From positions 1 to 64,000 of IMG/VR virus record IMGVR_UViG_3300001796_000003: 64,000 nt of DNA; one strand, written 5' to 3'. The notes below the pieces were generated by a model, which did not search any database, had not been told where the DNA came from, and saw nothing but the letters and a program-made list of their open reading frames with translations. The stretch's first letter is position 1. Every line of letters begins with the position of its first letter. Position numbers and translations under genes: made by a program. Below are positions 151 to 11,821 of this stretch, one piece after another. This DNA comes from a virus.

Positions 151-615
151 TTACTTCACGAAGGCCCGCAGGTGCTCGGGCAGCTTGCTGATGTCGAGCT
201 GGACCTTCGGCTTGAGCTCTTCGAGGCGCTTGTCGATCTCCGCCTGCACGGCCAGCTTGGCCTCGGGGTCGGTCACCACGGAAAGCAGGACCTTGAGGTT
301 CTTGAGCTGTTCGTCACCGCTGCCGGTGCGGGAACCGGGATTCTTCGGGGCGTAGGTGACGCCACCGTTCATCCGCTTGTCCTTCCGCACCCAGTTGTTG
401 GTGAGGCCGGGGATGTACTTCTTCAGCGAGATCTCGTCGTTGCCGCCCGAGTTCTTCTGCACCTCGCCGTTGAGGAAGCCGAGGAGGATGCGCTCGTGGA
501 CCTTTTCCGTCTGGTCCTTGGTCCACTGCGTGGTCGACGGCACCGGGCCATCGAGCTTGCCATCGTTGCCGAAGACGGAGAGAACCGCGAGGTACACCAA
601 TTCGCCCTGAGTCAT
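151..615 (-). CDS. Conserved 154-residue protein, paralogue A
   Basis: Function not recognised. The start is the ATG at 615 (MTQGEL), because a GGAG ribosome site precedes it and the paralogue at 1826-2290 begins with the same residues. Both copies are exactly 154 residues, align without gaps, and differ at about 34 positions by eye (about 78% identity). The most conserved parts are PVPSTTQW, KNSGGNDEISL, NNWVRKDKRMNGGVTY and a charged C-terminal helix around QAEIDKRLEELKPKV. No membrane segment or signal peptide is visible. The gene is GC-rich with a strong preference for C- and G-ending codons, unlike the tail genes, which suggests high expression or a different origin. The promoter is probably the TATATT box at 692-697. 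Confidence 0.85.
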   Translation of the reverse strand: MTQGELVYLAVLSVFGNDGKLDGPVPSTTQWTKDQTEKVHERILLGFLNGEVQKNSGGNDEISLKKYIPGLTNNWVRKDKRMNGGVTYAPKNPGSRTGSGDEQLKNLKVLLSVVTDPEAKLAVQAEIDKRLEELKPKVQLDISKLPEHLRAFVK

Positions 616-691
616 GGTATTGCTCCTTGCTTGGACTACGTTCGAGTTGGACTGCACTATGATGAACTCTATGCTTCGTTCATCGTGACCT

Positions 692-1825: not shown

Positions 1826-2290
1826 TTACTTCACCAGCGCCCGGAGGTGAGCCGGCAGAGCGTCGACGTTCAGCTCGACCTTCGGCTTCAGCTCCTCGAG
1901 ACGCTTGTCGATCTCGGCCTGAACCGCAGCCTTCGCGTCGCCATCCGTCACCATCGTCAGGAGGACCTTGAGGTTCTTCAGCGTCTCGTCACCAGCGCCC
2001 GTCCGGCTTCCGGGGTTCTTCGCCGTGTACGTCACCCCGCCGTTCATCCGCTTGTCCTTTCGGACCCAGTTGTTCACCAACCCGGGGATGTACTTCCGGA
2101 GGCTGATCTCGTCGTTGCCACCGCTGTTCTTGTTCACGTCACCCCGCTGGAACCCGAGGAGGACGAGGCCGTGGACCTTGTCGCTCTGCTCCTTCGTCCA
2201 CTGAGTGGTGGACGGGACCGGACCGTCGAGCTTGCCATTGTTGCCGAACACCGCGACCACGCTCATGAACACCAGTTCGCCCTGCGTCAT
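1826..2290 (-). CDS. Conserved 154-residue protein, paralogue B
   Basis: Near-twin of the protein at 151-615, with the same length and no gaps. The start is ATG 2290 (MTQGEL), preceded by AAGGAG and a 6-base spacer. Conserved blocks between the copies include SGGNDEISL, KYIPGL, NNWVRKDKRMNGGVTY and EIDKRLEELKPKV, so these probably carry the function. The N-terminal 25 residues and the loop after the first helix vary most. Function not recognised. Two copies in 2.3 kb, separated by four unrelated small genes, suggest an old duplication retained for dosage or divergence. Confidence 0.85.
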   Translation of the reverse strand: MTQGELVFMSVVAVFGNNGKLDGPVPSTTQWTKEQSDKVHGLVLLGFQRGDVNKNSGGNDEISLRKYIPGLVNNWVRKDKRMNGGVTYTAKNPGSRTGAGDETLKNLKVLLTMVTDGDAKAAVQAEIDKRLEELKPKVELNVDALPAHLRALVK

Positions 2291-2443
2291 TGTGTACTCC
2301 TTCGGTTGGTGCATCGTGTGAGAGGATGTCGATTCGGTTTTGGCCTACCCGCTGGCCTCGCCGTCGATAGAGGACTCTAGGTTCGGAGTGGTACTCACCG
2401 CATAAACACTCTGGCGGGCGCATTTTCTAAACAATTCCACTCA

Positions 2444-2512
2444 GGAAACATGGTGGGCCACACAATAGTTATTCCTGCCAACCCCGGAACACAAAGGGCC
2501 CACCATGTTTCC
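2444..2512. repeat. Perfect 16-bp inverted repeat with 37-base spacer
   Basis: GGAAACATGGTGGGCC at 2444-2459 is exactly inverted at 2497-2512. The spacer contains a smaller TTCC/GGAA pair. It lies in the 300-base gene-free gap between the minus-strand block and the plus-strand miniprotein array. A 16-bp perfect match is unlikely by chance. It could be a protein-binding site, a replication origin element, a bidirectional transcript end, or the footprint of a small element. No gene lies inside it. Confidence 0.75.
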
Positions 2513-2575: not shown

Positions 2576-2581
2576 TATAAT
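2576..2581 (+). promoter_or_regulatory. -10 box (TATAAT) of the miniprotein array
   Basis: GTATAAT with no clear -35 element, 11 bases before the ATG of the first array gene (2593). Transcription would start only about 5 bases before that codon. Confidence 0.5.
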
Positions 2582-2592
2582 AGAGATGTCAA

Positions 2593-2670
2593 ATGAATCA
2601 ATACTATTACACAGCGGCCCTACTCATAGTTATTCACAAGTTGGGCCTCATATCCATCTACCCGTACTGA
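2593..2670 (+). CDS. Array miniprotein a (25 residues)
   Basis: First and shortest member of the 14-gene array. It is essentially only the shared core: LLIVIHKLGLI, then SIYPY. The DNA of the core closely matches that of the next gene (GCGGCCCTACTCAT against GCTGCTCTCCTCAT), supporting duplication. It ends before the second helix seen in other members, so it may be a truncated copy. A different frame from ATG 2586 reads 63 residues without the motif; I prefer the frame with the motif. Confidence 0.45.
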   Translation: MNQYYYTAALLIVIHKLGLISIYPY

Positions 2671-2676
2671 GCCACA

Positions 2677-2862
2677 ATGATCGAACACAATCGACTAGCT
2701 GCTCTCCTCATGATCGCGCGCAAATTGAACCTAATCACGCGGCCCGCCTTCGTTCACTCGCTAAGCCAATTCACTAATCGCTTCTTCATATCAGGTGGCA
2801 TATCACCTATCCTGGGACGCTCGCGCCCAGTACGCACGAGTACAAATCCTCCCCTCGTATAA
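2677..2862 (+). CDS. Array miniprotein b (61 residues)
   Basis: Starts at ATG 2677, six bases after the previous stop. The core LLMIARKLNLI (residues 10-20) matches the array consensus: two hydrophobics, two variable, hydrophobic, two variable, L-x-L, hydrophobic. It is followed by TRPAF and a second predicted helix (VHSLSQFTNRFF). The layout IARKLNL-turn-helix resembles a minimal helix-turn-helix. The stop codon lies inside the TATAAT box that serves the next gene. Confidence 0.6.
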   Translation: MIEHNRLAALLMIARKLNLITRPAFVHSLSQFTNRFFISGGISPILGRSRPVRTSTNPPLV

Positions 2863-2863
2863 T
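2858..2863 (+). promoter_or_regulatory. -10 box (TATAAT) 7 bases before an array gene
   Basis: GTATAAT, then AAAAGGA, then ATG at 2871. The spacing predicts transcription starting at or next to the start codon, as at several other genes in this window. Confidence 0.5.
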
Positions 2864-2870
2864 AAAAGGA

Positions 2871-3005
2871 ATGATGAAATTCGACTCTTACCTCTCACTC
2901 GTGAGCGTCATAAGCCAACTGGGCCTTGTATCGCAAGATGCCAAGCAAGCTGCACTCCTGAAGCTCATCGTGAGAGAATGGGCGGAACGGAACGGAAATG
3001 GTTAG
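2871..3005 (+). CDS. Array miniprotein c (44 residues)
   Basis: Begins MMKFDSYL and carries the core LVSVISQLGLV (residues 10-20), then a short SQDAK linker and a second amphipathic helix (AALLKLIVREWAERNG). Both helices are short, with leucines on one face, matching the family layout. AAAGGA lies directly before the ATG, too close for normal use unless the second ATG is the start. It is missed by length-filtered gene finding because it is under 60 residues. Confidence 0.6.
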   Translation: MMKFDSYLSLVSVISQLGLVSQDAKQAALLKLIVREWAERNGNG

Positions 3006-3054
3006 CAGCGCGGGAGCGGGTAGGAGTTCGTATGACAACCACACGAGGGTTTTG

Positions 3055-3231
3055 ATGGATGCAATATTTCAAGAGGTGGAACTATCAACTAAGTTCCTGT
3101 GGTTCCTGTGGAAGCTGCGGCTCGTTATCACAGCGGACTCGTATGAGGCCACCAGACGGGCCATGAATCAGCGATACTATCTAAAGAGGGCCGAGATCGA
3201 CAAGCGCAGGTTTCGTGGGGTAAGCATATGA
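3055..3231 (+). CDS. Array miniprotein d (58 residues)
   Basis: Starts at ATG 3055 after GAGGG with a 5-base spacer. The core is FLWFLWKLRLV, followed by ITADS and a basic second helix (EATRRAMNQRYYLKRAEIDKRR). It is the most tryptophan-rich and hydrophobic core of the set. It ends in ATATGA, so the next gene starts inside its stop (4-base overlap), a sign of coupled translation. Confidence 0.65.
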   Translation: MDAIFQEVELSTKFLWFLWKLRLVITADSYEATRRAMNQRYYLKRAEIDKRRFRGVSI

Positions 3232-3440
3232 TACAAAAAGACACTAAGCACGTTATGCAAGAAGACACTTGGGATGTTAATGATCCGCTCGCTATCAAGT
3301 TGATTGACTCGTGTTATTTCTTATTGGACACGATGCGCTCCCTGCAACTCATCACCTTTAACCCATTTTATCGTCTTGACTATATGGAGTACGACAGCCT
3401 TGTGTACAGGCTACGGTGGCGCTATTATGACCATAAATGA
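3228..3440 (+). CDS. Array miniprotein e (70 residues)
   Basis: Overlaps the previous gene by ATGA. It has a 30-residue acidic/polar N-terminal extension, then the core LLDTMRSLQLI, an ITFNPF linker and an aromatic, basic second helix (LVYRLRWRYYDHK). The DNA around the core (GACACGATGCG) is identical to that in gene g, so these two copies separated more recently than most. Confidence 0.7.
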   Translation: MIQKDTKHVMQEDTWDVNDPLAIKLIDSCYFLLDTMRSLQLITFNPFYRLDYMEYDSLVYRLRWRYYDHK

Positions 3441-3591
3441 AAGAGCGGGGTATGCGTGCTATATATTCTTTGAGATATTGGGCGACTTAAACCTGTGCCG
3501 CCACGGGCCGCATTGGAACCCATGGGAAGAGGAAGAAGTTGTTGCGAGGTTCTTTATGCTAGCAGAGGAGTACAACCATGATTTCCCCTGA
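3427..3591 (+). CDS. Array miniprotein f (54 residues)
   Basis: Starts at ATG 3427, overlapping gene e by 14 bases. The core FFEILGDLNLC is followed by RHGPHWNP, a run of acidic residues (EEEE) and a second helix (VVARFFMLAEEYNHDF). It is more acidic than other members. No external domain recognised; the core motif and position define it. Confidence 0.65.
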   Translation: MTINERAGYACYIFFEILGDLNLCRHGPHWNPWEEEEVVARFFMLAEEYNHDFP

Positions 3592-3763
3592 TTACTGGTC
3601 AGCTGACGAACACGAATATATAGAGTTGTATTGGTACAGGCTAATCGACACGATGCGTGCGCTTAACCTCATCTCTGACCACACACATACCTTGGTAGGC
3701 GGAATAAGCGGAATGGGAGTGTGGGATATCATGTGGAGATATAAAAGTGAAAGACCATTATGA
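3578..3763 (+). CDS. Array miniprotein g (61 residues)
   Basis: Starts at ATG 3578 with a good GAGGAG site 7 bases upstream, overlapping gene f by 14 bases. The core LIDTMRALNLI is almost the consensus and is nearly shared with e (LLDTMRSLQLI) and h (LIDMMRALNLA). A glycine-rich linker (VGGISGMG) leads to a short aromatic/basic helix (VWDIMWRYKSER). Confidence 0.7.
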   Translation: MISPDYWSADEHEYIELYWYRLIDTMRALNLISDHTHTLVGGISGMGVWDIMWRYKSERPL

Positions 3764-3890
3764 AGGGGCCAACCTGTGCCACTTCTTGATAGATATGATG
3801 CGGGCACTCAACCTCGCCAAGATCAACCCGGCCGCGGACCTTGCTACGTATTTTAGACTGGCGAGGCGTCTCAAGGAAGAATATGTATAG
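3747..3890 (+). CDS. Array miniprotein h (47 residues, GTG start)
   Basis: Starts at GTG 3747 with GGAGA 7 bases upstream, overlapping gene g by 17 bases. The core LIDMMRALNLA is followed by KINPAAD and a clear second helix (LATYFRLARRLKEEYV). With almost no extensions it is perhaps the clearest view of the basic fold: helix, proline turn, helix. It has a non-ATG start and falls below usual length cut-offs. Confidence 0.65.
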   Translation: MKDHYEGANLCHFLIDMMRALNLAKINPAADLATYFRLARRLKEEYV

Positions 3891-4107
3891 AGCGTACAAG
3901 TACGTTAAGCAGGGCATAGCCAATACTCATGCCTACAACCTGTTTTTGAGCTTCGAAGAGATTTGCCACAGATTAGGTCTGTGGCCCCACAGCATTGGCT
4001 GGTGGTCTTGTTCGACTGGTTTTAAGCGGCTCACCAAGAACATGCCCACCAGAGCCACTCAGGCAACTAGGCGCAGAGGGGCCGCGACCTCTCGGGAGCC
4101 GATTTAA
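3883..4107 (+). CDS. Array miniprotein i (74 residues)
   Basis: Starts at ATG 3883 after AAGGA, inside the end of gene h (8-base overlap). The core FEEICHRLGLW resembles the first helix and turn of a helix-turn-helix; PHSIGWWSCSTGFKRL follows where a recognition helix would be. The C-terminus is long, basic and rich in T, R and A (TRATQATRRRGAAT), unlike other members, and suggests nucleic-acid contact. It ends the first sub-block of the array. Confidence 0.65.
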   Translation: MYRAYKYVKQGIANTHAYNLFLSFEEICHRLGLWPHSIGWWSCSTGFKRLTKNMPTRATQATRRRGAATSREPI

Positions 4108-4238
4108 AATACGCGTAGTGTGTATCATCTGCCAACTTAATAAAATAAGCTAAGTGTTTTAATTCTGTAAACGAAATTGATGTTTTTAAAAAATGTGAAG
4201 GTATCGATTAACCAAACATATTGAATAACGCCCTGAGT

Positions 4239-4244
4239 TATAAT
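4239..4244 (+). promoter_or_regulatory. -10 box (TATAAT) before the second array sub-block
   Basis: TATAAT in the AT-rich 160-base gap (4108-4269) that splits the array, 25 bases before ATG 4270. No -35 is evident. Apart from this box I see nothing in the gap. Confidence 0.4.
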
Positions 4245-4269
4245 AGTTATATAGTCCGGGGCGCGCACG

Positions 4270-4473
4270 ATGGTACCAAATGGTCACACAGCCACTTACG
4301 TTTTCTTCACGAGTATTATAAAACTAGGCTTATGCGACCCCCAAGTTGGACTGGTTCGCTCAGTGGATCATTTCTTATATCGATGGGGACAAAAGATTGG
4401 ATATAGTTATGAGCACAGAGAGCGAAGACGAAAGCAAGACAGGAAGATTCGCCGCCAAACTAAAAAGACATAA
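4270..4473 (+). CDS. Array miniprotein j (67 residues)
   Basis: Starts at ATG 4270 with only a weak GGGG upstream. The core FFTSIIKLGLC is followed by DPQVGL and a second helix (VDHFLYRWGQKIGYSYEH). It ends with a very basic tail (ERRRKQDRKIRRQTKK) that could bind nucleic acid. It overlaps the next gene by 65 bases in another frame, the longest overlap in the array. Confidence 0.6.
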   Translation: MVPNGHTATYVFFTSIIKLGLCDPQVGLVRSVDHFLYRWGQKIGYSYEHRERRRKQDRKIRRQTKKT

Positions 4474-4582
4474 GGCAACTTTCCGTTTCTTTGATGTCCT
4501 TCTCAGGTTAAAACTACGCGGCACTCCTACTAAGCGCCTTGATTTCTGGCGCCTCATCCGTACCTTCCTTGAGATAAAGTAA
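4409..4582 (+). CDS. Array miniprotein k (57 residues)
   Basis: Starts at ATG 4409 within gene j. A charged N-terminal extension (STESEDESKTG, then basic) precedes the core FFDVLLRLKLR, a GTPTKR linker and a second helix (LDFWRLIRTFLEIK). Because two frames are coding over 65 bases, the basic tail of j and the N-terminus of k share DNA. Confidence 0.6.
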   Translation: MSTESEDESKTGRFAAKLKRHKATFRFFDVLLRLKLRGTPTKRLDFWRLIRTFLEIK

Positions 4583-4584
4583 TT

Positions 4585-4734
4585 ATGCCATCTAATTGGG
4601 CTTTAAAGTACGCTACGTACGAATTTATGTTCATGTTGATTAAACTGAAACTATCCAGGTATAGTCCGCCGAGTAGAAACGTAGAGGCGCTTATTAGGCG
4701 TCACAAGTCTCGTTACAGCACATCAATCGATTGA
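4585..4734 (+). CDS. Array miniprotein l (49 residues)
   Basis: Starts at ATG 4585, two bases after the previous stop. The core FMFMLIKLKLS fits the consensus without gaps, followed by RYSPPSR and a basic helix (NVEALIRRHKSRYS). It is under the usual length cut-off, and the motif is the main reason to call it. Confidence 0.6.
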   Translation: MPSNWALKYATYEFMFMLIKLKLSRYSPPSRNVEALIRRHKSRYSTSID

Positions 4735-4758
4735 TGTTGGGCTTACAGCACTACTTGA

Positions 4759-4764
4759 TATAAT
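4759..4764 (+). promoter_or_regulatory. -10-like box (TATAAT) in the gap before gene m
   Basis: TATAAT in the 148-base gap between genes l and m, more than 100 bases from the next convincing start. It may drive m and n with a longer leader. Confidence 0.3.
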
Positions 4765-4882
4765 AGAGTAGCAACTCAAGCCGGACTCAATATGAGAAAT
4801 TTTCGGTCTAAACAAATAAGAATATACAAGGAGGACTTGCACTTTTGTTAGTGGTCGTTTTTCTCACGTAAAGGAGTCTACC

Positions 4883-5044
4883 TTGGAACCAAAATACAAC
4901 GGCGAACCAGATAGTGTAACAGCAGGCGTCAGAGCAATTCTGCATTTCCTGCTTCTTGAGAATAAGATCATAGGGCAAGTTCGATATCAAGATTTTGAAG
5001 ACAAGGATGGCTTTTCAAAATACATGGTCATGTATTTCAAGTAG
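4883..5044 (+). CDS. Array miniprotein m (53 residues, TTG start, degenerate)
   Basis: Starts at TTG 4883 behind one of the best ribosome sites in the array (AAAGGAG, 6-base spacer). The core FLLLENKIIGQ keeps the hydrophobic pattern at the start but has I-I-G where others have L-x-L, so it is the most diverged member. The second helix is short and aromatic (FSKYMVMYFK). It could be an unrelated small gene; position and layout argue for membership. Confidence 0.5.
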   Translation: MEPKYNGEPDSVTAGVRAILHFLLLENKIIGQVRYQDFEDKDGFSKYMVMYFK

Positions 5045-5053
5045 AATAAACAT

Positions 5054-5239
5054 GTGGAATACAACAAAGACTTTCTAGAAGTCGAAAACTCGTTTGTTTA
5101 CTTATTAATACTCTTGCAACAGCTTCGTCTGTCACAAAAAGTCACCGACATGCTTTTGCTGCATACGACTGACGTTCAGCAGTTTATGCAGCGTAACAGA
5201 CGACTATTGAGGAAACCGAGTGGGATCTTAATCCTCTGA
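5054..5239 (+). CDS. Array miniprotein n (61 residues, GTG start)
   Basis: Last array member, starting at GTG 5054. The core LLILLQQLRLS (residues 17-27) is followed by QKVTDM and a second helix region (DVQQFMQRNRRLLRK) with a basic face. Its 3' end overlaps the minus-strand cysteine-rich gene by 12 bases, tail to tail, closing the array. Confidence 0.6.
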   Translation: MEYNKDFLEVENSFVYLLILLQQLRLSQKVTDMLLLHTTDVQQFMQRNRRLLRKPSGILIL

Positions 5240-5482
5240 CAGAGCTTCTTCCATTTGTATGCGAAAAAGTTCTTCAGCAGCAGCGTCCTCGTATTTCTCT
5301 AAGACTTCCTCAACGGTCATGTCGTCGCGTATATTAAGGTAGTCCATGCAGTTCACTCGACGTCCTTCCTTCTGCTTGTTCCCAAGTGGACAGCGTTTGC
5401 ATATGGCCGGCTTGGCAAAATCCTCACAGTCGCCGTGCCTGTCAATGATTTCCTGCAAAATCTCTACTTTATCTTCCATCAT
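5228..5482 (-). CDS. Small cysteine-motif protein (84 residues)
   Basis: Acidic protein with cysteines arranged C-x8-C-x2-C-P-L-G and a further C in NCMDYL, probably a small metal-binding site. The C-terminal third is a glutamate-rich helix (TVEEVLEKYEDAAAEELF). It starts at ATG 5482, exactly 6 bases after a TATAAT box on the minus strand, so its mRNA is probably leaderless. It points toward the miniprotein array and away from the structural genes. Function unknown; a regulatory or host-interacting role is only a guess. Confidence 0.75.
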   Translation of the reverse strand: MMEDKVEILQEIIDRHGDCEDFAKPAICKRCPLGNKQKEGRRVNCMDYLNIRDDMTVEEVLEKYEDAAAEELFRIQMEEALSED

Positions 5483-5543: not shown

Positions 5544-6350
5544 ATGCCACAAGATAAGCCGTCGAGAGTATACCCAACTAAATCACCTACTAGTGTTCCG
5601 TCACCTATGCCGCCGGATATCCCAGATCCTAGCATTTACGGCATTAGCTTTGATCAACTGCTCAATAACCGTGGCATCCGAATGCTCCACAGTAAGGCTG
5701 TCCCCTGTCCGAACATTAAAACTGTAGATGATAGTGCCCATGTACCCAACTGCACGTTCTGTGACAATAATGGGTTCATTCACTATGATGAAAAGGAGAT
5801 CTGGGCAACTTTCGGAGGCAATTCTATTCAAAAAACTTTTGAAGCTCACGGCGTTTGGGAAGTCGGAATGGCTACTGTAACGGCTCCCACCGAATATCCA
5901 GATGGAACCGAAGCTGATTTTAATACCTTCGATCGCCTCCGAATTCCTGATTTTACAGTCCGAATGTGGGAGATTAAGGAATATGAGCCGAGACCTGGCA
6001 ATATTCAGACTCTACGATATCCTGTGCAGAAGGTTGACTATGCTACAGCGATTGTGGACAATGTTCAAGTGTTTTATAGGGTTGACGAAGATTTCACTGT
6101 CGACACAAGTGGAAATATCGTATGGATCGAGGGAAGACAGCCCGCATACGATTCCTCAACTAACCATGGTCAACCAATCACATGGGCTTTTTATGCCGAA
6201 CCTGTGTATTATGTGGTTCAGACATTGCGTGAACTTAGAATCACTCAAGAGTTGATTGCAGGTGAAAAAACCGCAATACGCTTACCGCAGAGTATCCTAG
6301 TTAAACGTGACTTCCTGCCTAATAGGACTGAAACGATTGTGAATCCGTAA
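5544..6350 (+). CDS. Probable neck/structural protein with a cysteine cluster (268 residues)
   Basis: First gene of the plus-strand structural block. The N-terminal 30 residues are rich in P and S. A cluster CPN...NCTFCDNNGF (about residues 52-74) looks like a zinc-binding site. The rest appears to be beta-rich with many aromatic residues. The start is ATG 5544, six bases after a TATAAT box; a TTG at 5529 in the same frame overlaps that box and is rejected. Its place ahead of the connector-size genes and the sheath fits a head-tail neck component. No named family is recognised. Confidence 0.7.
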   Translation: MPQDKPSRVYPTKSPTSVPSPMPPDIPDPSIYGISFDQLLNNRGIRMLHSKAVPCPNIKTVDDSAHVPNCTFCDNNGFIHYDEKEIWATFGGNSIQKTFEAHGVWEVGMATVTAPTEYPDGTEADFNTFDRLRIPDFTVRMWEIKEYEPRPGNIQTLRYPVQKVDYATAIVDNVQVFYRVDEDFTVDTSGNIVWIEGRQPAYDSSTNHGQPITWAFYAEPVYYVVQTLRELRITQELIAGEKTAIRLPQSILVKRDFLPNRTETIVNP

Positions 6351-6412: not shown

Positions 6413-7906
6413 ATGCCACAAGCTGTAAGTAGGAGACAATGGCGCATGCTTCAGGCAGTCCTTCACGGTCACTCTGACGGTGGTTCGCGAGGCCGACCGC
6501 CAAAGTCTATTGCTGCTAAGTACACTGCTCCTGACAAAGAAGCCCCTGAGTCTAAGGACAATGATCGCGGTGGTAGTTGGACTGACGAACATCACAAGCG
6601 CCACGCCAAGAAAGAAAAAGAGAAGAGCAAGAAGGATTTGCATAAGTCATTTGAAGAGTTCTACAAGAACCGCAATCACTTTGCTGCCACTCTAGTCGTA
6701 GACAATATGGGTAAGGTTCTTCTTGGTACTCACTGTAAGGGTGGACTTGCTTTTCCCGGGGGACACGTAGAACCCAATGAATCTGCAGAAAATGCGGCAC
6801 TCCGAGAGATGCACGAAGAGTGTGGAGCCGTTGGACGCATAACAGACAAGATTTGGTCTGGAACTTGCGAGGGTAATCAGGGAGTTGTGTTCTTGGCCGA
6901 GATTGCCTCAGGTACCCCTAAGAATACAGACGAGATTAAGACCTGGAAGTGGTACGAAATGGACCAGATTCCGTGGGAAAAACTGCGCCAATGCTGCAAC
7001 GCTCCTCTGAAGGATTTTATCCAGACTCGCTTTGGCAAGTCCTTAAAGGGCATGGTTGCGCTAGAACAGCTTGAGAAGAACATCATTCGGCAGCGCGGAT
7101 CAGCGGTCCTCGAAATCACTCATGGAGATGCTCTAAAGCTTATTGGCACCGGTCTATTCCGCCATCTCAAGAAGATGGTTGATGGAATGACCGATGAATC
7201 GTTCAAGGAAATTGACTTCGATACAAATAAGGTGAGTATTCGTAAGCACATGAATGACGTTTACTCTGGTCGAGTTTCTGATGGTCACAAGGTAATCTAT
7301 CAGTGGACCAATAAGTCACTTCCTGAGGTTACTGCGGCCTTGATGTCACTTTTCGAGTGGTATTTGCCCGAAGATGCAGATGTACTAGACATGGTCTCAG
7401 ACAAGAACCTTTCAGATGATGCCATTCACGGCGGTTTGAGTCATTTAGTTGATAATTATAAGCGTCACAATCTCGGAGAGATTTACCAGGAGATGGAGAC
7501 GATTAGAGAGCAGATGCGAAATGGTGTAGCTATTGACCTTCAGCAAGCTGAAGCCAAGATTCTTAAGCTCTTTGATCGTCTTGAAGAGACTACTCATGAG
7601 CTTGCTGAAAAGCACAACAAGCTTGCTGAAGCAATCGGTAAGGATATTGACGAGTTAGAAGCCAAGCTACGTGAGTTACAGACTAAGCTAGATGAGCCAC
7701 GCAAGGCCAAGACAGTAGAAGCGTTCTCTGCTCATCCTGCTGATAGTAATAAAGTTCATGACAAGTTGTATTCATACCTTACAAAGCCGCGAGTTGAGAT
7801 TTCACCCAATGGGAGAATTGTTATTTCATTTGGGGACGATTGGGAAGACATGGAACGCAGTAACTTTCTTGAAGATATTAGAGCACGAGTTATCGCAAGA
7901 AAGTAA
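6413..7906 (+). CDS. Nudix-domain protein in the neck gene cluster (497 residues)
   Basis: Contains a Nudix hydrolase domain (about residues 88-205). The Nudix box is complete at 117-139: GHVEPNE, then REMHEECG, matching G-x5-E-x7-R-E-U-x-E-E-x-G-U. Nudix enzymes hydrolyse nucleoside diphosphates linked to another group. The N-terminal 85 residues are basic and low-complexity (KKEKEKSKKD). The part after 210 has an unrecognised globular region, then a long coiled coil (about 365-430) with heptads such as LEETTHELAEKHNKLAEA. Such a fusion among neck genes suggests a virion or assembly protein that carries the enzyme. The substrate cannot be told from sequence. Confidence 0.8.
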   Translation: MPQAVSRRQWRMLQAVLHGHSDGGSRGRPPKSIAAKYTAPDKEAPESKDNDRGGSWTDEHHKRHAKKEKEKSKKDLHKSFEEFYKNRNHFAATLVVDNMGKVLLGTHCKGGLAFPGGHVEPNESAENAALREMHEECGAVGRITDKIWSGTCEGNQGVVFLAEIASGTPKNTDEIKTWKWYEMDQIPWEKLRQCCNAPLKDFIQTRFGKSLKGMVALEQLEKNIIRQRGSAVLEITHGDALKLIGTGLFRHLKKMVDGMTDESFKEIDFDTNKVSIRKHMNDVYSGRVSDGHKVIYQWTNKSLPEVTAALMSLFEWYLPEDADVLDMVSDKNLSDDAIHGGLSHLVDNYKRHNLGEIYQEMETIREQMRNGVAIDLQQAEAKILKLFDRLEETTHELAEKHNKLAEAIGKDIDELEAKLRELQTKLDEPRKAKTVEAFSAHPADSNKVHDKLYSYLTKPRVEISPNGRIVISFGDDWEDMERSNFLEDIRARVIARK

Positions 7907-9604: not shown

Positions 9605-11821
9605 ATGGCTATTTCAGTTTCATTCAACGGCTCAACAATTTATAAGCCGGGTTCATATTCAAAGCGTCAGATTGACCTCGGCGGAGGTTTTCCTCTTAGT
9701 CCTACTGGACTAATTGCCCTTTTTGGAGAGGCAACCGCTGGGACGCCAGGCGCCGATGTACCCAACATTGCTAACAATGTTTTCACTCCGGATCAGCTGC
9801 CTACAATCAAGCAGATCTATCGTAGTGGCCCTCTCGTAGACGCTTGTAACTTCCTGTTCGCTCCTGGTGCTGATGGTGCAATTCCGTCTGGCGCTCAGGC
9901 TATCTACATCTACAAGACCAACGCGTCGACTTTGGCATCGCTTGCACTAGCCAACTCTTGGGGTTCAGTCGAAGCTCGCGAGTTCGGTGCTGGCGGTAAC
10001 CGTCTTACCTTAACGAATGCTCTTGTGCCTGCAACTTCAGCATCAACGGCATCGAGTGCAACGTTTGATCTCACAGGTGGTGCTCTCGATACTAAGACTT
10101 TAACTCTTCATGTTCAGGGCACTGGAACTGTAAACACATTCACTGTTCCTGCTTCAACTACTACTCGTGCACTTCTCACGACAGCATTAGCTGCAGGCGG
10201 CAACTGGTCCGGCGGCGTTCCTTCTGGTCTCACTTTCACTGTTGGAGGTGCAAGCGATGCGGCGGCCACGTTAACAATCGCTCGCGTTGCAACTAGCAAT
10301 CCTCATCGTGAAGGATACGGTCGCAACTTCCAAATCACCGCTGGTTCCGCGACCGGTGTTGGTTCTGGTACATTCAAGATTGCTACTGGCCTAGTGGTTG
10401 CTAGCTCAGAAGATATGGCGCTTCTTACAGTACAGAACACTCGCGATCTTGTTACTGAAACCGCGACAGTTGGCGGAAACGTCGTATTAAAGGTTGGTCG
10501 TCTCAACGGTACTTCTCCGCAGGTCATTATCGATGCAACGACAATCAGACTAATGAACAACGCGGTTGCTGAGTATACTCTCAACAAGACCGACTTTGAT
10601 ACAGTTCAGCAGGTTGCTGACTTCATTAGTGCCAGCACTGGCGGCAATTGGATGGCGACCGTCGGTAGTGTGCTCTTTGGTCAGCTTGGCCCGGATGTTC
10701 TTGATCGTGTAACAGTTGGTGCTTGGACATCTGTATTAGATGCAAGCAATCTTCCTGCTCAGATTAAGAAGGATGCAAGCGAGGTAGCGGACTTCTTCGA
10801 AGCTTCAAGCAACGTTGAATTAGAGGTTGGTGCAAACTCGTACTGTGGTTTGCCTGAAGCGCTTTCGGCTACATACCTCGCGGGTGGCGCTGTTGGTGCA
10901 ACCAGCACATCGTCAATCGTTGATGCTCTTACGGCTTTCCAGAAAGTGCGTGTTAATGCGGTTGTTCCGTTGTTCTCGCGTGATGCAACTGATGACAAGG
11001 CAGATCTACTCACGGATACTGCGTCAAACTATACGTTGGCGGGTATCCACCAGGCTGTCAAGACTCATTGCAGCTTAATGCGTACTACTAAGGCTCGCAG
11101 TGAGCGTCAGGGTTACTTGTCAATTAAGGACACTTATGTCGCTTGCAAGGAAGCGGCGCAGACGCTTGCTGATGCTAGCATGCAGTTGCTGATTCAGGAT
11201 ATTAAGCAGAATGACAGCGCTGGCGTAATCAAGTGGTTCCAGCCTTGGGCATTGGCTTGCTTGCTTGCAGGCGCTCGCGGTGGTTCTCCTGTCGGTCTCC
11301 CAATGACCAACAAGTACTTGAACTGCTCTGGTATCCGTCAGACTGCTCAGGCGATGAGCGTTGATGACGCAGACATCGTTGAGGATTTTGATCCTGATAC
11401 ACAGTATGAAGATGCGATCCGCAACGGCCTCACGTTCCTAGAACACCCGCAGAACGGCGGCTACCGTGTTGTGGTTGACAATACCACCTACGGTCGGGAT
11501 GGCAACTGGGTATACAACCGCGCTCACGTTCTCTACGCAGCTGATATCCTTGAGTACGATTTCCGTACTCAGCTTCAGAATATCTACGTCGGCGTGAAGA
11601 ACACGGTATCGGCAGCTGAAGTAGCTGGCACCTGCGACTCGATCCTAGCAACGTACCTCGCTCAGGGCATCACAGTATCAACGCCTGACGCCAAGCAAGG
11701 TTACAAGCAGTTGTCAGTTCAGATCGTGGGCAACACGATTAATGTGAATGTCACTGCGAAGCTCGTTGAAGGCGTTGACTTCGTGCTCTCGACGATCAAC
11801 TTGCAGCGCGTTCAGTCGTAA
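9605..11821 (+). CDS. Tail sheath protein (738 residues)
   Basis: The contractile outer tube of the tail. The N-terminus (GSTIYKPGSYSKR, then GLIALFGEATAG) and the C-terminal domain (YVGVKNTVSAAEV, VNVTAKLVEGVDF) are typical of myovirus sheath proteins; the region at about 450-640 contains the conserved core with tryptophans and GLPMTNKYL. Residues about 130-340 form an alanine/threonine-rich insertion, probably a surface domain, which explains a length above many sheath proteins. The gene has its own promoter and an intrinsic terminator 28 bases after the stop, so it is transcribed as a strong single-gene unit, as expected for an abundant protein. Confidence 0.93.
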   Translation: MAISVSFNGSTIYKPGSYSKRQIDLGGGFPLSPTGLIALFGEATAGTPGADVPNIANNVFTPDQLPTIKQIYRSGPLVDACNFLFAPGADGAIPSGAQAIYIYKTNASTLASLALANSWGSVEAREFGAGGNRLTLTNALVPATSASTASSATFDLTGGALDTKTLTLHVQGTGTVNTFTVPASTTTRALLTTALAAGGNWSGGVPSGLTFTVGGASDAAATLTIARVATSNPHREGYGRNFQITAGSATGVGSGTFKIATGLVVASSEDMALLTVQNTRDLVTETATVGGNVVLKVGRLNGTSPQVIIDATTIRLMNNAVAEYTLNKTDFDTVQQVADFISASTGGNWMATVGSVLFGQLGPDVLDRVTVGAWTSVLDASNLPAQIKKDASEVADFFEASSNVELEVGANSYCGLPEALSATYLAGGAVGATSTSSIVDALTAFQKVRVNAVVPLFSRDATDDKADLLTDTASNYTLAGIHQAVKTHCSLMRTTKARSERQGYLSIKDTYVACKEAAQTLADASMQLLIQDIKQNDSAGVIKWFQPWALACLLAGARGGSPVGLPMTNKYLNCSGIRQTAQAMSVDDADIVEDFDPDTQYEDAIRNGLTFLEHPQNGGYRVVVDNTTYGRDGNWVYNRAHVLYAADILEYDFRTQLQNIYVGVKNTVSAAEVAGTCDSILATYLAQGITVSTPDAKQGYKQLSVQIVGNTINVNVTAKLVEGVDFVLSTINLQRVQS

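Follow-up and report, generated by a model that had tools for sequence, protein, structure and literature searches.

In the host-takeover modules of SPO1 and T4, very short genes overlap one another in clusters; their functions are unknown, and most of them are mutually unrelated. A second point of comparison is Ty1 p22, one of the Gag-derived restriction factors, where part of a particle protein is made as a product of its own and blocks particle assembly in trans (PMC4599808). On the host side, virion proteins are sensed by bacterial immunity (PMC9712102), and the sensor list of PMC11364771 names SEFIR, Lit, CBASS, Pycsar, PifA and CapRel for the capsid and DSR2 for the tail tube, the latter being treated also in PMC11087589. 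In the case of T4 Gol and Lit, as cited in PMC9712102, a short capsid segment is itself the ligand of the immune sensor, so that pieces of this kind are recognisable, and DSAD1 is a small phage protein proposed to neutralise the tail-tube sensor DSR2 (PMC11087589). Here we analyse a tandem array of 14 short plus-strand genes, designated a to n, at 2593-5239 of a 64,000-nucleotide stretch of viral DNA (positions 1 to 64,000 of the IMG/VR record IMGVR_UViG_3300001796_000003, hereafter the window). Our comparisons show the array as one member of a lineage-wide set of putative miniproteins built on a shared, predicted amphipathic helix with a helix-ending cap. In the related islands the non-core part is often recognisable as a copied segment of a virion protein, while in the clade of the window such segments are not detectable. 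As the best explanation, to which we assign a rough probability of 0.4, we propose that the miniproteins are a docking-helix library including many virion mimics, which may act as anti-defence decoys.

The shared core in the window and in related islands

The strict 11-residue pattern of the core is found in 9 of the 23 plus-strand open reading frames (ORFs) of 2593-5239, against a mean of 0.19 and a maximum of 2 in 300 dinucleotide shuffles, while other 2.7-kb slices of the window have 0-3. The relatives used for comparison are about 100 viral loci on metagenomic contigs, obtained from tail-sheath and virion-gene searches, and the islands in them are located with the virion gene at 5553..6350 as anchor. 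Among them, L004 and L005 have respectively 18 and 14 strict plus-strand matches in the syntenic interval, with 0.43 and 0.35 expected, one core per ORF and the plus strand only; on the minus strand of these two intervals the strict pattern has no match. The repetition of the core in 2593-5239 is thus confirmed to exceed chance by far, and shuffled sequence, the control proposed with an initial annotation of this DNA, does not reproduce it. That annotation had assigned the core to each of the 14 genes. Nine of them carry it strictly; in each of i, k, l and n a single hydrophobic position is violated, and the core of m is degenerate, in agreement with the annotation. In the window's clade the core takes the form [FL][FL]xxhxxLxLh, and paralogy inside the window is detectable for e and h only (42% identity over 38 residues, E about 4e-4 to 1e-3). 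A chance or compositional origin of the core, which would draw on the short ORFs and leucine-rich helices common in any sequence, is contradicted by the shuffle, minus-strand and reversed controls together with the conservation in relatives, and is hardly credible.

Beyond the window, a profile iterated over 57 distinct islands converged on x-L-[LIF]-x-[LF]-L-x-K-L-[GN]-[IVL]-[KI]-S-A (consensus xLLxLLxKLGIKSA), occurring once per ORF. The profile places 114 plus-strand ORFs above its score cut-off, a level attained by 11 of the roughly 2000 minus-strand ORFs. At least one ORF passes a strict cut-off in 30 of the 57 islands. Outside the islands and the conserved genes, 29 further core ORFs are detected in six genomes, against 0.6 in all in the shuffled genomes. 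In G002, G003, G005 and G007, small ORFs with the core were also seen scattered singly on either strand, a long way from the main island. The island of L096 is inverted relative to the virion operon and lies on the minus strand, with 7 of its 8 members having the core variant FLxFLxKTGNxAA or a near variant of it.

In the relatives, the position of the core varies from the very C-terminus (L110) through the middle to near the N-terminus of the protein, and no second helix is required. Because of this varying position, the conserved unit looks like a short amphipathic helix of 10-14 residues with an apparent glycine C-cap, and not like a two-helix domain. Repeated duplication of a two-helix miniprotein, as originally suggested, therefore describes the tandem expansion of the family properly and is too narrow with regard to its unit, since the part beside the helix and its cap is often a virion fragment in the relatives.

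Virion-protein pieces in related islands

The first sign of such fragments was the recurrence of sheath-like N-termini (MAIxVxFNGAxIxxPGxYG) among the island proteins. From six near-full-length contigs, ORFs of at least 140 residues were grouped into 151 families, and the array ORFs were searched with their cores masked. At E≤0.01, the core-masked ORFs form 15 pairs with virion families (one antisense artefact being dropped), and reversed sequences form none. All 15 pairs are confined to 5 of the 151 families, which are the capsid (F039; phrog_752, 2.8e-53), the sheath (F009), two tube-like proteins (F010 and F055, which follow the sheath and are named by position and sequence, with no PHROG call) and a baseplate J-like protein of more than 2000 residues (F020, named from our reading of its N-terminal sequence). 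The E-values are per search; the strongest of them, 1e-7 to 1e-12, remain significant when corrected for 151 families, and those around 1e-2 do not by themselves. Hidden Markov models (HMMs) built from the virion segments only match 15 plus-strand ORFs at E≤1e-3 and none in reversed sequences, with best E-values of 8.8e-12 for the tube, 9.3e-12 for the capsid N-arm, 1.3e-10 for the sheath and 9.8e-9 for baseplate J. The five minus-strand matches at the same threshold belong to genuine minus-strand arrays in L096 and L107. In L096, virion pieces are carried by 5 of the 8 members (capsid N-arm, capsid 154-181, capsid 237-273, tube and baseplate J). On the whole, the copied pieces have 20-40 residues and come from the capsid N-arm, capsid positions around 154-181 and 237-273, the sheath N-terminus, the first tail-tube hairpin and the baseplate J N-terminus; the ORF at 5144-5410 of L067 is a chimera of sheath N-terminus, core and tube. 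When ORFs of at least 140 residues were scanned for the core itself, capsid, sheath and tube were not among the matches.

A GETD-type group of array proteins resembles the ETD motif of baseplate J weakly (E 0.16-3.8), yet it holds the same place in all six genomes, which is suggestive of that motif as another source of pieces. For the array protein groups C1, C3, C6, C10 and C11 no source gene was found. Some candidates were rejected: the top match, to F118 (2e-41), involves an ORF that runs antisense to one of the conserved genes, and gene i of the window, read as a capsid fragment by its AYNLF stretch, gives E 3.6-4.8 with reversed controls scoring better. HMM scans of the window's array ORFs against the phage families gave nothing significant, the strong F107 matches being ORFs antisense to the left-flank gene.

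The same matches bear on the question of how such genes are born. A recombination-prone interval may produce short promoter-proximal ORFs from duplicated pieces, including the 5' ends of virion genes, with only the core being selected, for instance as a small regulator or host-takeover peptide, and the likeness to virion proteins being incidental. This would agree with the majority of members that have no virion similarity, and with the sheath and baseplate copies, whose first codon is the native start, as expected of a 5' copy. However, the same few segments keep returning from island to island, on both strands and in every case joined to the core, and they come from 5 of 151 families only. 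Random capture is disfavoured because it would hit other genes too, and we regard such a nursery as rather unlikely.

It may also be considered that the miniproteins serve the phage's own virion, docking as helpers on capsid or tail parts or riding in the head as cargo, with the core recruiting something else, such as packaged proteins or a protease. The island adjoins the virion gene cluster, in one genome the protease-like head gene is directly preceded by an ORF with core and capsid N-arm (G007:67078), and the capsid N-terminal motif KALTAGYGGAGAPT..GGVLQxESL is common to the capsid and the protease-like head protein. The extreme turnover and the change of copy number between relatives are unlike an essential assembly factor, and to our knowledge contractile phages have no such gene set, so we find this role distinctly improbable. 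As an observation in its own right, the capsid N-terminal motif, in the form KA[LI]xAGYGGAGxPT..GGxxQxESL, recurs close to the C-terminal end of the protease-like head protein with SLT domain (L161 7399-9057 and 10443-11891; also L129, L132 and L170), where it is possibly a shared processing or targeting site.

Turnover and selection

The position of the array corresponds to a syntenic interval, bordered by a leftward gene family (151-657, 1826-2314) on one side and by a leftward Cys-rich gene and the virion gene at 5553 on the other. L004 and L005, with sheaths 83-84% identical, have about 22 and about 20 similar miniproteins in this interval, all on the plus strand. The comparison of related phages, proposed earlier as a check, thus reveals a different copy number, with longer arrays, of about 20-25 genes, at the same syntenic place. 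Orthologues are identified for g and i-n at roughly 33-62% identity and, in the relatives, for none of a-f and h, which indicates that both copy number and content of the array turn over fast.

Codon alignments of the orthologues have 1078, 737 and 1538 differences at positions 1, 2 and 3, respectively, for pairs that were aligned as proteins, a procedure favouring protein conservation. Where orthologues exist, the frames are conserved and the substitutions are biased to third positions, the opposite of the outcome named earlier as refuting the family. The rate of nonsynonymous substitution (dN) is lower than the synonymous rate (dS) where dS is estimable, dS being mostly saturated, and gene m, with dN/dS of about 0.1-0.2, is the member of lowest divergence despite its degenerate core. 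One recent tandem pair (L005/L045) has changed equally at the three codon positions (17/18/17), with dN/dS of about 0.6. The diversifying selection once supposed for these genes is not borne out, as dN is below dS in the orthologues and equal change among positions is seen in this one tandem pair only. On the other hand, the idea of a new, fast-evolving miniprotein family expanded in tandem is upheld by the enrichment of the core, the kept frames and the lack of a library match. Two of the related contigs were binned with metagenome-assembled genomes of Saprospiraceae and Cytophagales, an association given by binning only.

Structure prediction and database searches

The AlphaFold2 model of window gene l has helices at residues 4-20 and 30-47 (predicted local distance difference test, pLDDT, 71; predicted template modelling score, pTM, 0.40), and a capsid-type member is modelled by AlphaFold as all helix (pLDDT 73, pTM 0.30), both models being of low-to-moderate confidence. 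A two-helix fold thus fits the window gene that was modelled, while the relatives need no second helix. Profile searches of the members against Pfam, PHROGs, NCBIfam, PADLOC and PDB gave no significant family match; a Cas2 match in PADLOC (7e-4) concerns one of the 14 members and was judged an isolated chance hit. BLAST of the array DNA and of single proteins against named phages and plasmids likewise gave no significant match, and our literature searches of open-licence papers found no description of such arrays. As an arrangement, the miniprotein array appears to be categorically new.

These results bear also on the suggestion that the miniproteins are minimal helix-turn-helix regulators binding DNA. 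A few members are basic and the window's clade is modelled as two helices, which would suit this role. Against it, the core is often C-terminal, as in L110, or is followed by beta-like virion pieces; nor is a second helix needed where it is central or N-terminal, and no helix-turn-helix family matches. We consider DNA-binding regulation very improbable.

Layout of the array and neighbouring elements

The virus record to which the window belongs has 97 kb, and the same virus is present as a 172.6-kb IMG/VR contig (L003). Judged from its genes it is a contractile-tail phage, with virion genes from 5553 onward and a tail sheath gene at 9605, for which the sequence search gives a 33% relative in Myxococcus phage Mx1; tRNA and Rfam scans of the window found none.

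All 14 frames of the array are present where the initial annotation had placed them. Genes a (2593..2670, 25 residues, core LLIVIHKLGLI), b (2677..2862, 61 residues, LLMIARKLNLI) and c (2871..3005, 44 residues, LVSVISQLGLV) are followed by d (3055..3231, 58 residues, FLWFLWKLRLV), e (3228..3440, 70 residues, LLDTMRSLQLI) and f (3427..3591, 54 residues, FFEILGDLNLC). Gene g (3578..3763, 61 residues, LIDTMRALNLI) has orthologues in L005 and L004, and gene h (3747..3890, 47 residues, LIDMMRALNLA), the paralogue of e, has a GTG start. Orthologues are found in L004, L005 and L046 for gene i (3883..4107, 74 residues, FEEICHRLGLW; E 5e-21 to 3e-14), in L004 and L046 for gene j (4270..4473, 67 residues, FFTSIIKLGLC; E 4e-17 and 1e-12), and in L004, L005 and L048 for gene k (4409..4582, 57 residues, FFDVLLRLKLR). 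Genes l (4585..4734, 49 residues, FMFMLIKLKLS) and n (5054..5239, 61 residues, LLILLQQLRLS) each have orthologues in four relatives, and between them lies m (4883..5044, 53 residues), the most conserved member, with a TTG start and a good Shine-Dalgarno sequence. Four of the starts are internal ATG codons within longer ORFs, namely those of d at 3055 (ORF 2998-3231), f at 3427 (3304-3591), i at 3883 (3841-4107) and k at 4409 (4346-4582). The overlaps of 4-17 bases formerly described are seen for d/e, e/f, f/g, g/h and h/i; j and k overlap by 65 bases, and gaps precede c, d, j, m and n.

On the left, the island is bordered by a conserved gene of 162 residues (1826..2314, minus strand). It is a paralogue of the gene at 151-657 (minus strand, 74% identical), and this family of about 160 residues is kept at the island border in many relatives; neither paralogue has a PHROG match, and 1826-2314 has no Pfam match either. 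On the right, a conserved Cys-rich protein of 84 residues (5228..5482, minus strand; pattern type CDYF..CKRCPLG..NCMDYL) has homologues at 9 other loci and adjoins the island in relatives, and Pfam and PHROG searches with it were without match. The anchor gene at 5553..6350 (plus strand) encodes a virion structural protein (phrog_1004). Next to it in the virion cluster, 6413-7906 encodes a 497-residue protein with a NUDIX hydrolase domain at its N-terminus.

A TATAAT element resembling a -10 box is located at 2576..2581 (plus strand), 11 bases ahead of the ATG that opens gene a, which would make a near-leaderless start, and a second one at 2858..2863 (plus strand), 7 bases before the ATG of gene c. 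The window contains 12 cases of TATAAT-N4-10-ATG versus 3.5 expected, a number reached in 0 of 100 shuffles, with sites at 2576, 2858, 5532, 11876, 13015, 20994, 36997 and 48119 on the plus strand and at 5480, 7442 and 59389 on the minus strand. In several relatives the TATAAT-to-ATG spacing recurs ahead of the counterpart of the 5553 virion gene. This suggests that the phage lineage may have leaderless or near-leaderless transcripts, and the -10-like boxes ahead of a, c and 5553 are consistent with transcription from there. In addition, the intergenic stretch that separates the array from the divergently oriented leftward genes, probably a divergent promoter region, has at 2444..2512 a perfect 16-bp inverted repeat, a hairpin with a long loop. 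Its predicted RNA fold has -32.6 kcal/mol (z -3.7), and 0 of 200 shuffles are equally stable. Scans for sigma-70 promoters and terminators gave no excess over shuffles.

Possible function and comparison with known systems

As decoys, the miniproteins would dock through the core helix to a common partner, or assemble with each other through it, and the variable part would mimic a virion-protein assembly surface, thereby occupying whatever binds there. The likeliest targets would be bacterial immune sensors triggered by capsid, tube or other virion parts, and the library would diversify by duplication and by capture of virion-gene pieces. In the window's clade the presented parts may have diverged beyond recognition or may mimic something else. 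The initial annotation, in naming host binders or anti-defence factors, probably came near to this.

Several points weigh against the decoy explanation. With sliding-segment HMMs no virion piece is found in the array of the window and its four close relatives, where the matches are no better than the reversed controls, and most members in the other islands are likewise without a recognisable virion piece. The likeness among the cores of one island is significant only when L096 is included, so a partner co-evolving with the core is weakly supported. Moreover, the phage produces the virion protein at full length in any case, so that a decoy would have to come into play before it or else bind in a non-activating way.

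The pieces could be aimed instead at competitors: as dominant-negative peptides they would enter interfaces of the capsid, sheath, tube or baseplate in related phages (or satellites) infecting the same cell and poison assembly there, with the core serving to multimerise or deliver them. The capsid N-arm, the sheath N-terminal arm, the tube hairpin and the baseplate J N-terminus are what we take to be plausible interface elements. The copies have drifted from the phage's own version, for example with YG[PD] in the sheath copies versus YS in the sheath. Precedents are Ty1 p22 (PMC4599808) and the anti-phage defence by blocking of virion assembly (PMC10884400; Tai, PMC11364771). Because sheath and baseplate J are not named among the sensed proteins in the sensor list of PMC11364771, interference with assembly fits at least as well as decoys on this point. 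The phage's own virion uses the same surfaces, however, and self-poisoning must be avoided. We consider such interference possible but doubtful.

More generally, it is a tentative suggestion, held with less than even confidence, that large phages may continually rebuild a library of virion-epitope miniproteins as decoys against host sensors or rival phages, for which no counterpart is known. If true, phages would possess a counter-defence, or a weapon against each other, of a new type, capsid or tail proteins being the trigger of many bacterial immune systems. Such a library would reveal virion surfaces under surveillance, supply candidate peptides for blocking the sensors, and account for some of the small genes of large phages that so far lack an explanation. 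Should the mechanism be wrong, there would still be a module of 10-14 residues, repeated by the dozen in each genome in miniproteins that are otherwise unrelated, as a rule of phage genome organisation in need of explanation.

Unlike the genes of the host-takeover modules in SPO1 and T4, the members of the array share one core, which recurs genome-wide. Compared with Ty1 p22, which is one large fragment inside gag, there are here many pieces of 20-40 residues from several virion proteins on a shared helix, known from their genes alone. DSAD1 is a single protein for which no virion mimicry is claimed, and the proposed decoys would resemble it in their action; no likeness in sequence was seen. 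The segment of T4 Gol described in PMC9712102 lies within the full capsid protein and activates defence, whereas the pieces here are separate genes with an added helix. Finally, Tai and Tab (PMC11364771, PMC10884400) target the virion assembly of competitors, as the interfering peptides considered above would do, but they are dedicated proteins encoded by prophages, whereas the miniproteins are arrays of virion fragments in lytic-type genomes.

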